Assembly: GCF_014647595.1 (NCBI RefSeq)
Contig: NZ_BMPM01000001.1
Span: forward strand, 372,001-436,000
Length of the DNA stretch: 64,000 nucleotides
Direction: 5' to 3'
Source of the DNA: Paenarthrobacter histidinolovorans
GTDB lineage: Bacteria > Actinomycetota > Actinomycetes > Actinomycetales > Micrococcaceae
Below are positions 1,076 through 54,932 of this stretch, piece after piece (within the stretch, counting starts at the first letter, position 1; each line of letters starts with the position of its first letter). The notes under the pieces were generated by a model. The model saw nothing but the letters and a program-made list of their open reading frames with translations, made no database searches and was not told the origin of the DNA. The position numbers were made by a program, and so were the translations under genes.

Positions 1076-1312
1076 TCAGCCTCCCTGTACTGCTGTAACG
1101 AGTTCGAGTTCATCGCCGTCGGCCAGCGGAGTCGCTGCCCACTGGCTGCGTGGCACCACCTCGGAATTGCGGGCGACGGCGACACCCAGCTTCCCGCCGT
1201 CGGCCGCCTGTCCGCGGTGGTCAAGTACGCGGCCGGTGACGGCCGTGACGAGCGTGCTGACGGAGGCGTCGGCGGGCACCTGGTGGGCTGCGCCGTTGAG
1301 CTTGATGTTCAT
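1076..1312 (-). CDS. thiS: Sulfur carrier protein ThiS
   Basis: 78 residues with a beta-grasp fold pattern: MNIKLNG at the N-terminus, LADGDELELVTAVQGG at the C-terminus. The terminal Gly-Gly is the site that becomes adenylated and then thiocarboxylated to donate sulfur to ThiG. A longer in-frame reading exists upstream, but it runs through the end of thiO and a palindromic repeat; the ATG at 1312 fits the family start. The gene is 37 nt after the thiO stop and 3 nt before thiG. It is slightly longer than the 65-70 residues usual for ThiS, with the extra residues around GQAADGGK, as often seen in actinobacteria. Confidence 0.95.
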   Translation of the reverse strand: MNIKLNGAAHQVPADASVSTLVTAVTGRVLDHRGQAADGGKLGVAVARNSEVVPRSQWAATPLADGDELELVTAVQGG

Positions 1313-1338: not shown

Positions 1339-1403
1339 GCAACGCGGGCTCACTGATGGCCCCCTGCGGGGACTTCCATGGGCCATGGCTGACCCCGCGA
1401 TGC
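1339..1403 (+). repeat. 65-bp palindromic element, copy 1 (overlaps 3' end of thiO)
   Basis: This segment aligns without gaps to 30852-30916, with about 50 of 65 positions identical by hand count. Both copies begin gcaacgcggg and end tgaccccgcgatgc, with complementary outer arms and inner ggccc/gggcc arms. Here it encodes the last residues of ThiO (about FSASRGQPWPMEVPAGGHQ) and supplies its stop codon (1350-1352). It looks like an interspersed REP-like element that has become coding. Confidence 0.65.
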
Positions 1404-2594
1404 GCTGAAACGGTCGGGCCGGAAAATGGACCAGCGGGAATCAGGGGAACCAGTGAGCAGCTCCCCCACGATCCTGGCGGCCACAGGGGTGAGGAGGACA
1501 CCGTGCCGGAAGAATCCGGTGGCAACGATCAGCCCTGCCAGGTACCCGTCCGGTTCGGCTACGCGGCCCAGCAACGGAGCGTTGTCCGGAGTTCCTGGCC
1601 TGGCGCGTGCAGTTGCTTCCAGGAGTTCAAGTTCGGCCACGGCAGGAACCAGGACCTGGGCGTCCCGAAGGAGCTGGTAAACGCCGCCGGCGGAGACTGC
1701 GTTGGAAGTCGCCGACAAGCCGTCCTCGCGCTGGGTGGCTCCGATGACCACTGTTCCGTCGTCCCGGGGAACGATGTAAACGGGCACCCCGCGGACCATG
1801 CCACGCACGGTGGCTGTGAGCAGGGGCCTGAGGTGCGCCGGGACCCGAAGCCTGAGGATATCTCCGTAGACCGGCCGGACCGGAAGTTCCAGGCCTTCGG
1901 GGAGGCCAGCCAGCGCGGGAGCACCCAGCCCGTTGGCCACAACGGTCTCGCCGGCCAGGACGGACTGCCCGGATCCGAGCTCCACTCCGGCCACGCGACG
2001 CCCATCCCACAACAAGCCGTGGGCGGAGTCCGCAACGGCAAAACCGTCCCTGGCGCCGCCCACCCACGTGTCGTCGCCGGGTGAATGCGCGGCCAGCCCT
2101 GCCATGAGGCAGCCCGCCAGCTTCCGGGGATCAACCTGATGATCTGCGGGGATCTCAAAGGCACAGGAAATTTGCGGGCTCAGGAGCGGTTCGCGCTCCC
2201 TGGCAGTCCGCACCGACAACGGTTCGACCCCAAGGCCTGCGGCAAGCTGGACGGTTCGAAGGTCTGCGAGCGCACGGCGGTCGGCGGCGTCGGCACCCAC
2301 GGCGAGAGTCGGCGTCGTGCGGTATCCGGTAGCTTCCACAGCTTGGCGAAGGCCGCCGGCAAACGAGGGCCACAACTTCGATGACTCAAGCATGAGGCCC
2401 AGGAGGTCTTCTTCCTGGTAATGGAGTTCACTGACGGGAGCCAGCATGCCGGCAGCTGCAAATGTCGCACCCGTGGCGGGTGCCGGATCGATGAGGGCTA
2501 CGGAGCGGCCCAGCCGCCGGGCCTCGTGGGCGATGCCCAGTCCGATGACGCCGCCGCCGATAACGGCAACATCCGCGTGAATGGCTTCTGCCAT
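1350..2594 (-). CDS. thiO: Glycine oxidase ThiO (FAD-dependent)
   Basis: 414 residues. ThiO oxidises glycine to dehydroglycine for thiazole synthesis. The N-terminal dinucleotide-binding motif VAVIGGGVIGLGIAHEARRL with ALIDP identifies an FAD-dependent DAO-fold oxidase. The C-terminal RARPGTPDNAPLLG and ATGFFRHGVLLTP segments are typical of glycine oxidase. ATG at 2594 is preceded by AAGGAAAC just after the TPP aptamer, so ligand binding probably masks the ribosome-binding site. The last ~19 codons and the stop are made from a palindromic repeat also found downstream of galE, so the C-terminal tail is probably extended or replaced relative to homologues. Confidence 0.93.
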   Translation of the reverse strand: MAEAIHADVAVIGGGVIGLGIAHEARRLGRSVALIDPAPATGATFAAAGMLAPVSELHYQEEDLLGLMLESSKLWPSFAGGLRQAVEATGYRTTPTLAVGADAADRRALADLRTVQLAAGLGVEPLSVRTAREREPLLSPQISCAFEIPADHQVDPRKLAGCLMAGLAAHSPGDDTWVGGARDGFAVADSAHGLLWDGRRVAGVELGSGQSVLAGETVVANGLGAPALAGLPEGLELPVRPVYGDILRLRVPAHLRPLLTATVRGMVRGVPVYIVPRDDGTVVIGATQREDGLSATSNAVSAGGVYQLLRDAQVLVPAVAELELLEATARARPGTPDNAPLLGRVAEPDGYLAGLIVATGFFRHGVLLTPVAARIVGELLTGSPDSRWSIFRPDRFSASRGQPWPMEVPAGGHQ

Positions 2595-2599
2595 TTGTT

Positions 2600-2700
2600 T
2601 CCTTCCCTACGCCGGTACTAGCCGGATCAGGTCAAGCGGTCGGCTCTGAAGCCCTCTCAGCCGGACAGTCATAAAGACGCGCGTCACGGCTCCCGCAGTA
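2600..2700 (-). promoter_or_regulatory. TPP riboswitch (THI element) controlling thiO-thiS-thiG
   Basis: On the minus strand the conserved TPP aptamer blocks appear in order: GCGGGAGCC (2688-2696), CTGAGAGGGC (2651-2660), ACCTGATC (2625-2632) and CGTAGGGA (2604-2611). The ribosome-binding site AAGGAAAC follows directly at about 2596-2603. There is no obvious terminator between aptamer and thiO, so control of translation initiation is the likelier mechanism (inference). Confidence 0.95.
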
Positions 2701-2724
2701 CGTGCCCAGTTTAGAGGAACTACT

Positions 2725-29833: not shown

Positions 29834-30850
29834 ATGAAAATTCTTGTCACGGGTGGCACCGGCTACATCGGATCCCACACCGTCTTGTCCCTTCAGGAAG
29901 CCGGCCACGACGTCGTCGTGCTGGATAATCTGGTGAACTCCAGCGAAGAATCCCTCCGCCGGGTGTCCGAGCTCACCGGCAAGACCGCCGCCTTCCACAA
30001 GGTTGACCTGGTGGACGAGCCCGCCGTCGAGGCCGTGTTTGACCAGCACCAGATCGATGCCGTGATCCACTTTGCGGGCTTGAAGGCTGTAGGAGAGTCC
30101 GTCCAGGAGCCGCTCGCTTACTACTACAACAACATCGTGGGCACCCTAAATCTGCTCCGCGCCATGGACAAGCACAATGTGCGCTCCATCGTCTTCAGTT
30201 CCTCGGCCACCGTATATGGCGAGCACAACCCGATCCCCTACATCGAGAAGATGGAGATTGGAGCGAACAACCCCTACGGCCGCACCAAGGAACAGATCGA
30301 AGACATCCTCTCCGATCTTGGCAACGCCGACGACCGCTGGCATATCGCACTGCTGCGCTATTTCAACCCGGTGGGCGCCCATCCGTCCGGCCGCATCGGC
30401 GAGGACCCGCAGGGCATCCCGAACAACCTTGTACCCTTCATCGCACAGGTGGCTGTTGGACGCCGCGAGAAGCTGATGGTCTTCGGCGGGGACTATGACA
30501 CCCCGGACGGCACGGCCCAGCGCGATTACATCCACGTGGTGGACCTTGCGGATGGCCACGTAGCAGCCCTGAACTACATCGCGGACCGTGCGGGCGTCCG
30601 CCGCTGGAACCTGGGCTCCGGCCGCGGCTCCTCGGTCTTGGAGGTCCTGCGGTCCTTCGAGAAGGCCGTGGGCCAGCCAATCCCCTACGAGATCACCGGC
30701 CGCCGGGCCGGCGACCTCCCTGCCTTCTGGGCCGACGCTTCCTCAGCCCTTGCGGACCTGGGATGGTCCACCACCAAGACCGTGGACCAGATGTGCGAGG
30801 ACCACTGGCGCTGGCAGAAGAACAACCCCTTCGGCTACAACGCTTCCTAA
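29834..30850 (+). CDS. galE: UDP-glucose 4-epimerase
   Basis: 338 residues, family length. N-terminal NAD motif VTGGTGYIGSHTVLSLQEAG, catalytic SSSATVYG (Ser/Thr) and YGRTK (Tyr-xxx-Lys), and LRYFNPVGAHPSGRIGED. ATG 29834 is chosen; an in-frame reading upstream covers the promoter. It interconverts UDP-glucose and UDP-galactose, for galactose use or cell-surface glycans. It is followed by a palindromic element ending in a T-run. Confidence 0.96.
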   Translation: MKILVTGGTGYIGSHTVLSLQEAGHDVVVLDNLVNSSEESLRRVSELTGKTAAFHKVDLVDEPAVEAVFDQHQIDAVIHFAGLKAVGESVQEPLAYYYNNIVGTLNLLRAMDKHNVRSIVFSSSATVYGEHNPIPYIEKMEIGANNPYGRTKEQIEDILSDLGNADDRWHIALLRYFNPVGAHPSGRIGEDPQGIPNNLVPFIAQVAVGRREKLMVFGGDYDTPDGTAQRDYIHVVDLADGHVAALNYIADRAGVRRWNLGSGRGSSVLEVLRSFEKAVGQPIPYEITGRRAGDLPAFWADASSALADLGWSTTKTVDQMCEDHWRWQKNNPFGYNAS

Positions 30851-30851
30851 A

Positions 30852-30922
30852 GCAACGCGGGGTCACTTATGGCCCATGTTGGGGCCTCCAAGGGGCCACA
30901 AGTGACCCCGCGATGCTTTTTT
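30852..30922 (+). terminator. Terminator of galE formed by the 65-bp palindromic element (copy 2)
   Basis: Element at 30852-30916, gap-free match to 1339-1403. The outer arms cgcggggtcactt / aagtgaccccgcg pair, and the hairpin is followed by a T-run (30917-30922), so this copy acts as a terminator. Confidence 0.85.
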
Positions 30923-30932
30923 GGGCGGGAAT

Positions 30933-30982
30933 AACGACGGCGGCCGTCCCACCTCGCGTGAGGTGGGACGGCCGCCGTCGTT
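30933..30982 (-). terminator. Terminator of gltA
   Basis: 23-bp perfect inverted repeat (30933-30955 with 30960-30982), loop gcgt. Read on the minus strand it is followed by ATTCCC. It lies directly downstream of citrate synthase and 11 bp from the galE terminator. Confidence 0.85.
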
Positions 30983-30994
30983 GTTGGCCTGAAA

Positions 30995-32278
30995 CTAGTT
31001 GGCCGGGTAGTTGCGCTCCGGCTCCCCTGTGTAGAGCTGCCGCGGGCGGCCGATCTTGGTCTGGGGATCGTTGATCATTTCGCGCCACTGGGCAATCCAG
31101 CCCGGGAGGCGTCCAATGGCGAAGAGTACGGTGAACATCTTTTCCGGGAAGCCCATGGCCTTGTAGATCAGACCGGTGTAGAAGTCCACGTTCGGGTACA
31201 GCTTGCGCTGGATGAAGTAGTCGTCAGCCAGTGCCTTCTCTTCGAGGCGCATGGCGATATCCAGGAGTTCGTCGTTGCCGCCGAGCTTGCCCAGGACTTC
31301 GTGTGCCGTGGCCTTGATGATCTTGGCGCGGGGGTCGTAGTTCTTGTAAACACGGTGTCCGAAGCCCATGAGGCGGACGCCGTCTTCCTTGTTCTTGACC
31401 TTCTCCATGTAGTCCTCGGGCTTGATGCCGTCAGCCTGGATCTGGCGGAGCATCTTCAGGACGGCCTCGTTGGCACCACCGTGGGCGGGACCGAAGAGGG
31501 CGTTGATGCCGGCCGAAACCGAAGCGAAGAGGTTCGCGTTGGACGAGCCCACCAGCCTCACGGTGGAGGTGGAGCAGTTCTGCTCGTGGTCAGCGTGCAG
31601 GATGAGCAGGAGGTCCAGTGCCTTGACGACAACCGGGTCCATTTCATACTGCTCAGCCGGGAGACCGAAGCTCAGGCGCAGGAAGTTCTCCACCAGGTTC
31701 ATGGAGTTGTCCGGATACAGCATCGGCTGGCCGATGGACTTCTTGTGCGCGTAGGCCGCGATGACGGGCAGTTTGGCCATCAGGCGGATCGTGGAAACTT
31801 CCACGTGCTCGGCGTTGAACGGATCCAGCGAGTCCTGGTAGAACGTGGACAACGCTGAAACAGCCGAGGACAGCACGGGCATGGGGTGCGCGTCACGCGG
31901 GAATCCACCGAAGAAGCCCTTGAGTTCCTCGTGCAGGAGCGTGTGGCGGCGGATTTTCTGATCAAACTCTTCCAGCTCCGTGGGAGTGGGAAGGTTGCCG
32001 TAGATCAGCAGGTAGGAAACTTCGAGGAAGCTCGAGTGCTGTGCGAGCTGCTCAATGGGGTAACCGCGGTACCGCAGGATGCCTGCGTCGCCGTCGATGT
32101 AGGTGATGGCCGAGGTGGTGGCCGCTGTGTTCATGAAGCCGGGGTCATAGGCAACGGCGCCCGTCTGCTTCAGCAGCTTGGAAACGTCGTAGCCTTCGTT
32201 TCCTTCTACAACCTTGATGCGCGGCAGTTCGAGTTCGCCGCCGGCATGGCGCAGTGTCGCGCTGGTGGTCTCAGTCAT
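30995..32278 (-). CDS. gltA: Citrate synthase
   Basis: 427 residues, hexameric type I class. Active-site motifs: LILHADHEQNCSTSTVRLVG, FGPAHGGANEAVL, MGFGHRVYKNYDPRA, VDFYTGLIYKAMGFP. It condenses oxaloacetate with acetyl-CoA. ATG 32278 has AAGGGG upstream; the longer in-frame reading (to 32326) lacks a ribosome-binding site. A short perfect hairpin (GAGGCC-tatg-GGCCTC, 32293-32308) lies immediately upstream of the ribosome-binding site, and a further inverted repeat lies at 32429-32476. Confidence 0.96.
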   Translation of the reverse strand: MTETTSATLRHAGGELELPRIKVVEGNEGYDVSKLLKQTGAVAYDPGFMNTAATTSAITYIDGDAGILRYRGYPIEQLAQHSSFLEVSYLLIYGNLPTPTELEEFDQKIRRHTLLHEELKGFFGGFPRDAHPMPVLSSAVSALSTFYQDSLDPFNAEHVEVSTIRLMAKLPVIAAYAHKKSIGQPMLYPDNSMNLVENFLRLSFGLPAEQYEMDPVVVKALDLLLILHADHEQNCSTSTVRLVGSSNANLFASVSAGINALFGPAHGGANEAVLKMLRQIQADGIKPEDYMEKVKNKEDGVRLMGFGHRVYKNYDPRAKIIKATAHEVLGKLGGNDELLDIAMRLEEKALADDYFIQRKLYPNVDFYTGLIYKAMGFPEKMFTVLFAIGRLPGWIAQWREMINDPQTKIGRPRQLYTGEPERNYPAN

Positions 32279-54888: not shown

Positions 54889-54932
54889 ACGACGGCGGTG
54901 ACGGACCCGCGCGGGTCCGTCACCGCCGTCGT
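54889..54932 (-). terminator. Terminator of the compatible-solute ABC operon
   Basis: 22-bp perfect palindrome (54889-54910 with 54911-54932), directly downstream of the binding-protein gene. Confidence 0.85.

Follow-up and report, generated by a model that had tools for sequence, protein, structure and literature searches.

Two palindromic gene ends in the window

The window is a stretch of 64,000 nucleotides from contig NZ_BMPM01000001.1 of Paenarthrobacter histidinolovorans (genome G000 below). It holds two copies of a 65-bp palindromic element, one forming the 3' end of thiO and the other standing immediately behind galE. The features at these two loci are the following.

1076 to 1312, minus strand: thiS (which we take to be thiS from reading of the sequence), the next operon gene, its start 37 nt downstream of the thiO stop
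1339 to 1403, no strand assigned: palindromic element, copy 1 (degenerate), 65 bp, overlapping the thiO 3' end, with length and arms as in 27 other copies of the genome
1350 to 1403, minus strand: part of the element encoding the last 17 ThiO residues and a TGA stop; the frame enters the element and ends in its far arm
1350 to 2594, minus strand: thiO (414 aa), with a homologue in 61 of 61 genus genomes
2587 to 2706, minus strand: TPP riboswitch (RF00059, 61.4 bits), upstream of thiO
29834 to 30850, plus strand: galE
30852 to 30916, no strand assigned: palindromic element, copy 2, 65 bp, 1 bp past the galE stop codon
30933 to 30982, no strand assigned: separate hairpin between the element and gltA, with 20-bp arms and no mismatch
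30995 to 32278, minus strand: gltA, convergent with galE, whose product we take to be citrate synthase from its translation

The operon that bears the palindrome between thiO and thiS is thus one under riboswitch control. The two copies are identical at 50 of 65 positions in an ungapped alignment (76.9%), and the next-best ungapped match in the window, on either strand, reaches 34/65 for copy 1 and 33/65 for copy 2. When each is compared with its own reverse complement, copy 2 matches at 50/65 positions and copy 1 at 42/65. The first-pass annotation of the window, made from sequence alone, had put the ungapped identity of the two segments at about 77%, which held. It had assigned the last ~19 residues and stop of ThiO to the element, which held in part, the correct extent being 17 residues plus the stop (1350 to 1403). 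It had also described a T-run behind the galE copy, which is present (CTTTTTTGG after the copy), and had called that copy a terminator; the separate hairpin at 30933 to 30982 also stands before gltA, which means that the site has a terminator-like structure besides the palindrome.

A family of 65-bp palindromes

G000 holds at least 28 different copies of 65 bp, the two in the window among them; this is a lower bound because the count was taken from fetched stretches of the genome. A one-arm search of G000 returned matches that were mostly paired at a constant distance. The reversed control pattern gave 0 matches in each of 59 genomes, and with 28 copies on the other side of this comparison the family lies far beyond chance.

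The element has 26-bp arms around a variable 13-bp centre, with a total that is nearly always 65 bp and the consensus TAAA-GCAACGCGGGGTCACTTATGGCCCAT-N13-ATGGGCCATAAGTGACCCCGCGTTGC-TTT, in which arm positions 5 to 14 are almost invariant among copies. All 95 exact-arm matches of four genomes had the 65-bp form (G000 26/26, G032 24/24, G002 6/6, G008 39/39) under a strict-arm pattern that permitted gaps of 22 to 52 bases; the G008 figure comes from comparing two scans. Other lengths occurred at 4 of the 21 example loci L046 to L066 (L050, L057, L060, and L064). None of the 28 is as degenerate as the thiO copy, which has three arm mismatches to the consensus; unpaired arm positions number seven in one copy and zero to three in the rest. 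Centres vary by locus, and the half-centres GTTG and AAAT each recur seven times among 86 halves.

Some paired columns show changes on both sides. Over 75 copies, of which many come from different species and some from different genera, pair 5 is C-G in 70 and T-A in 5, and pair 19 is T-A in 32 and C-G in 28. For two G000 copies, the G061 orthologue has diverged, and its arms show matching double changes. Across 17 orthologous G000-G061 pairs, 22 arm positions had changed without their partner and 6 together with it; divergence was 3.1% in the outer arm, 5.2% in the inner arm, and 12.2% in the centre, a comparison that is biased because copies had been located by their arms. The predicted hairpin energy ranged from -41 to -64 kcal/mol (43 copies).

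Distribution across lineages

Strict arms were found in 21 of 37 genus genomes and were absent from all 22 genomes that represented the order's other families. The covariance model R1 matched 185 of 198 genus genomes at an E value of 0.001, weak matches included, and covariance searches matched 29 of 149 family genomes at 1e-4 (12 of 32 genera, the own genus counted) and 8 of 198 order genomes at 1e-5. The 80 loci examined from a named-genome scan that returned at least 116 stretches all belonged to Arthrobacter, Pseudarthrobacter, Paenarthrobacter, or unassigned Micrococcaceae. In these searches, then, strict copies were confined to the Arthrobacter group.

Palindromes of about this size but of different sequence occur in other genera, some of them close (group g40: L277, L279, L281, and L282), and many have a core resembling CACTT..GGC. 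Within the same GTDB genus we found a second family, CGATTGCTCCGTACTTGTCGTT-N12, of about 62 bp, in 10 of 61 genomes (for example, L259, L260, L355, and L362). Its centre measured exactly 12 bases at 33 of 33 places, although 2 to 32 were permitted. No strict copy of family 1 was present in any of the six family-2 genomes checked for both.

Family 1 was found on only two plasmid records, both of StoSoilB13 (1.0 and 1.35 Mb), and no palindrome match was found in phage records or viral contigs. On this basis we rejected carriage by plasmids or phages. Rfam at gathering thresholds gave no family for the element, either in the window or at nine loci.

Genomic sites

Gene context was read for 176 copies: the neighbouring genes converge at 107 of them, run in tandem at 61, and diverge at 7, and one copy is inside a gene. 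Stop codons face 275 sides, at a median distance of 11 bp, and start codons face 75. On 11 of the 275 sides the stop codon lies at least 19 bases inside the element, as in ThiO. Genes for these site and flank analyses were called with a custom codon-score script trained on fetched Arthrobacter loci, without an annotation pipeline.

An intrinsic terminator would have a strong hairpin followed by a U-run; the hairpins here are strong and the T-tract is weak. On 119 of 148 sides, 2 to 4 of the 8 downstream nt are T, which is T-richer than a control stretch with 0 to 2 T on 120 of 148. Solo copies may plausibly act as two-way terminators or transcript ends, which we infer from these features. We also infer that copies would persist best behind stop codons, where they would disturb little. 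There was no excess of target-site duplications of 4 bp or more (74 copies, shifts 0 to 5). Flank matches of 3 bp at shift 4 were seen 4 times against 0.7 expected, and we cannot exclude a duplication of 2 to 3 bp.

The thiO copy is an insertion in one small clade

The element is present at 4 of 30 orthologous thiO loci (G000, G008, G033, and G082), and in each of these genomes ThiO reads into the element and ends at the far-arm TGA. Where our script located the thiS ATG, the ATG follows the ThiO stop at 37 nt in three element-bearing genomes, and the thiO stop and the thiS start overlap by 4 nt in 21 element-free relatives. Neither element nor scar was found at 25 of the 30 loci. The closest relative, G061, whose ThiO is 92% identical, has a deletion scar in the form of a short remnant, GCAACCGCGCGTCGC, and its thiO once more ends within the start of thiS. 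These results show that the thiO copy is an insertion in one small clade that gave ThiO a new C terminus and stop and set thiO and thiS apart. The length of the ThiO tail past the RF motif varies among orthologues, and from this we infer that the tail is dispensable.

Turnover at galE-gltA and other sites

Of 30 orthologous galE-gltA spacers, 21 were readable (9 minus-strand loci were left out), and element and hairpin were scored by eye. The family-1 element was present in 6 of the 21, the rest having a family-2-like palindrome, another hairpin, or none, and the separate gltA-side hairpin was present in 21 of 21, with the element or without it. It is thus the palindrome that is gained and lost at this site, next to a hairpin that stays.

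The gltA-side hairpin belongs to a second recurrent type, ACGACG(G/A)CGG...CCGCCGTCGT, which occurs in the window at 30933 to 30982 and 54889 to 54932 and also at L386 (603 to 648), L353 (590 to 645), and L405 (5574 to 5620); by eye, it adjoins gltA in the 21 readable orthologues, with variants. In the L263 spacer a different hairpin, GGTTGAGCTTGTCGAAACC..., occupies the same site in one species.

All 17 copies of G061 and all 28 of G000 have an orthologous copy in at least one other of G000, G061, and G008, some of these assignments resting on one flank only. The 17 G061 copies are all common to G000, which suggests that the family is slow or dormant there. In G008, 19 of 46 copies have no orthologous copy in G000 or G061. 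For ten G000 copies that lack a G061 partner we looked at the corresponding site in G061, and six of these sites could be read: four are empty and two hold diverged copies. Two of the four empty sites hold an unrelated hairpin instead.

Between species, the centre of the palindrome has changed orientation at four loci while its flanks have not. At galE-gltA the G000 centre runs opposite to that of its orthologues in G061 and G008; 13 of 13 bases match G061 when inverted and 4 of 13 when read directly. The loci with inverted centres are the window copy at 30852 to 30916, compared with L300 and L318, and also L027, L022, and L037.

A nuclease-like gene is flanked by palindromes

Palindrome pairs about 1.04 to 1.05 kb apart recur. 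The G000 pair lies on contig C1 at 657541 and 658578, 221 kb beyond the window and invisible from the window's letters, and encloses an open reading frame of 324 codons that encodes a nuclease-like protein. Homologues stand between pairs of family-1 repeats in other genomes, between family-2 repeats in G078, G017, and G077 (frameshifted), and, in G250 and G342, which belong to two more genera, between two other repeats. The frameshifted G077 gene (L388) retains both flanking palindromes.

In family-1 genomes the gene occupies one locus, between genes that we take, from reading their translations, to be AlkA-like and AMP-ligase-like. Palindromes stand on both sides of it there in 11 genomes (G000, G061, G008, G186, G204, G182, Bi83, AQ5-06, G023, G012, and G069), AQ5-06 having two further genes on one side of it. 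When this locus was approached by synteny in seven genomes, three had the gene; G001, G006, and G074 had the neighbours only, with neither gene nor palindromes at the locus, and in the seventh (G022) the locus lay outside the stretches taken. There was no strict copy in G001 or G006 and no R1 match in G001 or G074. In family-2 genomes and in G250 the gene lies beside a gene that we take, likewise from its translation, to be purL-like.

We also searched plasmid and phage records protein first, with the protein and two homologues as queries, and this gave eight distinct places. Matching repeats stand on both sides in six of the eight: the two StoSoilB13 records, ERGS1:01, and three paralogues of one Tsukamurella tyrosinosolvens genome. 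The exceptions are L406, where just one side has a palindrome, and L407, where neither does. The three Tsukamurella paralogues have three different repeat sequences, those of the third (L410) being end repeats that resemble half-palindromes. These repeats recur at 11 places in 9 records, 20 places in 8 records, and 5 places in 3 records; in the count of 20, one palindrome may count on both strands. Eight further Tsukamurella sites, one viewed per record, are each no more than 15 bp from a stop codon, and five of the eight lie between convergent genes. Viral contigs searched with one protein gave no relative.

Control genes in the same loci were compared flank versus flank. The similarity was at most 31 bits for 90 of 91 controls, the sole exception being a DUF503 gene between two family-2 palindromes, and 37 to 128 bits for 17 of 19 nuclease genes. 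Eleven of the 19 nuclease loci cannot count as independent, since palindromes, or synteny with them, had led to their discovery. The centres of the flanking pair are the most similar of 378 pairs in G000 and tied first of 136 in G061; in G008 they match at 14/17 against a best of 16, so they are not the most similar there, and at L383, L390, and L419 they match at 8 to 10 of 17. These results establish the association of the gene with palindromes beyond the window's genus, across two bacterial orders.

Palindrome pairs also enclose ordinary genes, among them ones that we take from their translations to be DUF503-like (L276, L168, and L389) and FBP-domain-like (L037 and L339), as well as others. 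The name UDG used in our gene lists was assigned in the same way.

The protein combines a putative AbiEi-like part with a predicted Vsr/DUF559-type domain

The protein has 300 to 330 residues. PADLOC AbiEi models match its N-terminal half (E values of 1.7e-6 to 1e-11), and Pfam REase_MTES_1575 matches the C-terminal part at 1.1e-5 to 3.6e-4, below the curated cutoff, as does DUF559, also below its cutoff. MTES_1575 is a restriction endonuclease of the Vsr fold (PMC3710099). Residues E207, D239, G253, H256, and D265, possible catalytic residues, are invariant in 15 sequences.

In a structural model the C-terminal domain reached a pLDDT of about 68 to 90, and the N-terminal two thirds were poor (mean pLDDT of 59). 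VIA-align placed the C-terminal domain closest to I-Bth0305I (Z of 11.2), followed by 3hrl (10.7), a mitoribosomal chain (10.2), and Vsr (9.6). Residues ~53 to 132 compared with AbiEi gave a Z of 5.5, level with unrelated rows and in a poorly modelled region. Foldseek returned no PDB match at an E value of 0.001 or below, the best being 0.037. The model thus predicts a Vsr/DUF559-type fold for the C-terminal domain, from which nuclease activity is only inferred. AbiEi itself binds a perfect 11-bp inverted repeat with a separation of 27 bases, extendable to 23-bp arms, and these repeats stand in its own promoter (PMC3985639).

Interpretation and rival explanations

The reading that we favor, at a probability of roughly 0.62, is that each element in the window is a copy of a lineage-specific mobile palindrome that is spread or maintained by the nuclease-like protein found between two of its copies. 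The association is shown; the role of the protein is inferred. By analogy with AbiEi, and without binding data, the AbiEi-like/Vsr-type protein would bind the long palindrome. It would cut DNA in the manner of a homing endonuclease, an activity that is inferred and untested, and cutting followed by break repair would spread or maintain the palindrome, an inference that rests on the REPtron-like build and the homing-type fold. Solo copies may then be nonautonomous offspring, comparable to the REPs of REPtrons and served by an unrelated enzyme.

The first-pass annotation had proposed that a REP-like mobile palindrome could replace the 3' end of a gene. It had suggested a search for further copies and a comparison of ThiO C termini, and had named as refutation an alignment no better than that of random GC-rich hairpins together with the absence of more copies. 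That refutation did not materialize: the genome holds 28 copies with conserved arms at gene ends, the thiO insertion is specific to a clade, with the element supplying a new C terminus and stop in 4 of 30 orthologues, and the galE-gltA copy is optional. The proposal is supported, movement itself not having been observed. What could not be seen from the window alone is that the element is not a classical REP, as there is neither a GTAG/CGTC tag nor a Y1 transposase in the genome.

Several points stand against our reading. The Pfam and Foldseek scores are weak, two of the eight protein-first loci lack a matching pair and a third (L410) has only half-palindromes, and ordinary genes are also flanked. 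The poorly modelled N-terminal part with its weak AbiEi match, the lack of target-site duplications of 4 bp or more, the less similar flanking pairs of G008, L383, L390, and L419, and the frameshifted gene of G077 count against it too. There is no direct evidence of movement, and all 17 G061 copies are shared with G000. A bolder form of the reading, which we consider as likely to fail as to stand, is that this is an undescribed two-part selfish element of Actinomycetota, a long palindrome of nearly fixed length and free centre that is spread or maintained by a cognate AbiEi-like/Vsr-type enzyme encoded between two copies, the two codiverging by lineage and the solo copies settling at stop codons and remodelling the 3' ends of genes, as in thiO.

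One rival is that the palindromes are selected two-way terminators at convergent gene ends and that a lone nuclease-like gene merely lies between the ends of other genes. The proximity to stop codons, the convergent excess, the strong hairpins with T-richer downstream flanks, the unrelated hairpin in the element's place at two of the four element-free G061 sites, and the double changes that preserve arm pairing at some columns all favor it. However, the outer arms are nearly invariant between loci, though a terminator requires no fixed sequence, and the length is nearly fixed while the centre is free. In addition, galE-gltA already has another hairpin, the thiO copy entered an operon and a coding sequence, and only 1 of 91 other genes has matching repeats on its two sides. 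We consider this rival unlikely.

Solo palindromes might instead be scars of gene loss, where a nuclease-like gene bearing a palindrome at each end first inserted and recombination between the two ends then left one hybrid palindrome in the manner of a solo LTR. In favor of this are the gene between similar copies, the recurrence of some half-centres in mixed pairs, the lack of target-site duplications of 4 bp or more, and the half-palindromes that serve as end repeats at one Tsukamurella locus. Against it, we encountered no intermediate with a gene remnant inside, though without a systematic search, and we judge this explanation improbable as well.

Still less likely is that the palindromes are operator sites of an AbiEi-like regulator, with no mobility. 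AbiEi does bind long inverted repeats in its own promoter (PMC3985639), and fixed arm spacing with a free centre would suit a protein dimer, but 275 sides face stops versus 75 facing starts, copies stand on both sides of the gene, the presence is limited by lineage, and thiO carries an insertion.

An ordinary MITE of an unrecognized DNA transposon would likewise be short, palindromic, intergenic, and limited to a lineage, but we consider it very unlikely; against it stand the lack of target-site duplications of at least 4 bp and of any transposase between the palindrome pairs that we opened (strict half-sites were paired at 44/50 in G186 and 30/35 in G177, two complete relatives whose unpaired half-sites were not all opened).

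These findings matter beyond the window. The spread of short palindromic repeats outside RAYT families is an open question, some families, such as the CGTC repeats, having no known enzyme (PMC3733652), and one candidate enzyme is offered here. The protein also gives a lead on function for DUF559/AbiEi-like proteins, and since three paralogues in one Tsukamurella genome each have a repeat of their own, binding and cutting are directly testable. Finally, thiO is an example of a mobile palindrome giving a gene a new end and stop codon.

Comparison with known systems

DNA uptake sequences occur in hundreds to thousands of copies, single ones too. We rejected this identity, as there are 28 copies in the fetched stretches, with arms mostly paired at a fixed distance. 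MITEs, ERIC, and Correia-type repeats are short noncoding intergenic palindromic repeats; unlike them, the present family has no target-site duplication of 4 bp or more, a near-fixed length, a free centre, and a nuclease-like partner.

The open-licence PMC literature that we searched held no printed instance of the arm sequences that we could find, and in the same literature, read as titles and abstract starts of the best matches only, we recognized no link of DUF559, MTES_1575, AbiEi, Vsr, or EDxHD to palindromic repeats. Within those limits the pairing of palindrome and nuclease-like gene appears to be undescribed. Palindromes of the genus have already been counted in print, since Arthrobacter livingstonensis is tabulated among the RepRanger REP candidates (PMC12306157); that tool's default palindrome is at most 32 nt, and the sections bearing on the question hold no 65-bp family or partner gene.

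On the protein side, the nearest likeness is to the EDxHD (Vsr-like) homing endonucleases, the catalytic domain of I-Bth0305I being the best match to our model. Unlike I-Bth0305I, the present protein has an AbiEi-like N-terminal part and is flanked by palindromes that occur genome-wide. It resembles the AbiEi type IV antitoxin in a weak profile match of its N-terminal half, and AbiEi too binds a long inverted repeat; it differs in the added nuclease-like domain, and no AbiEii toxin gene was noticed among the listed neighbours, which were not searched by profile.

A REP is a palindrome of 20 to 40 bp tagged at one end by GTAG or CGTC (PMC3733652), and we rejected classical REPs because the present element has 65 bp and consensus ends GCAAC...GTTGC without either tag. 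Y1_Tnp (PF01797) was found nowhere in G000 and in only 1 of 61 genus genomes (G032). We also rejected a RAYT partner: the one G032 match that we opened, of two, adjoins an open reading frame that we take to be TnpB, hence an element of the IS605 type. TIRtrons, in which terminal inverted repeats (TIRs) flank RAYT-like genes (PMC3733652), likewise have an enzyme gene between repeats that form small families, but their enzymes are tyrosine transposases, whereas the protein here is nuclease-like and of another fold. The closest parallel in build is with REPtrons, which combine REPs with a RAYT and, as here, have lineage-specific palindromes at gene ends and an enzyme gene between repeat copies (PMC3733652). 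That build is met in the present system, where the repeat flanks the enzyme gene on both sides, with a palindrome of 65 bp and 26-bp arms in place of a 20- to 40-bp REP and an AbiEi-like/Vsr-type protein in place of the Y1 HUH transposase.
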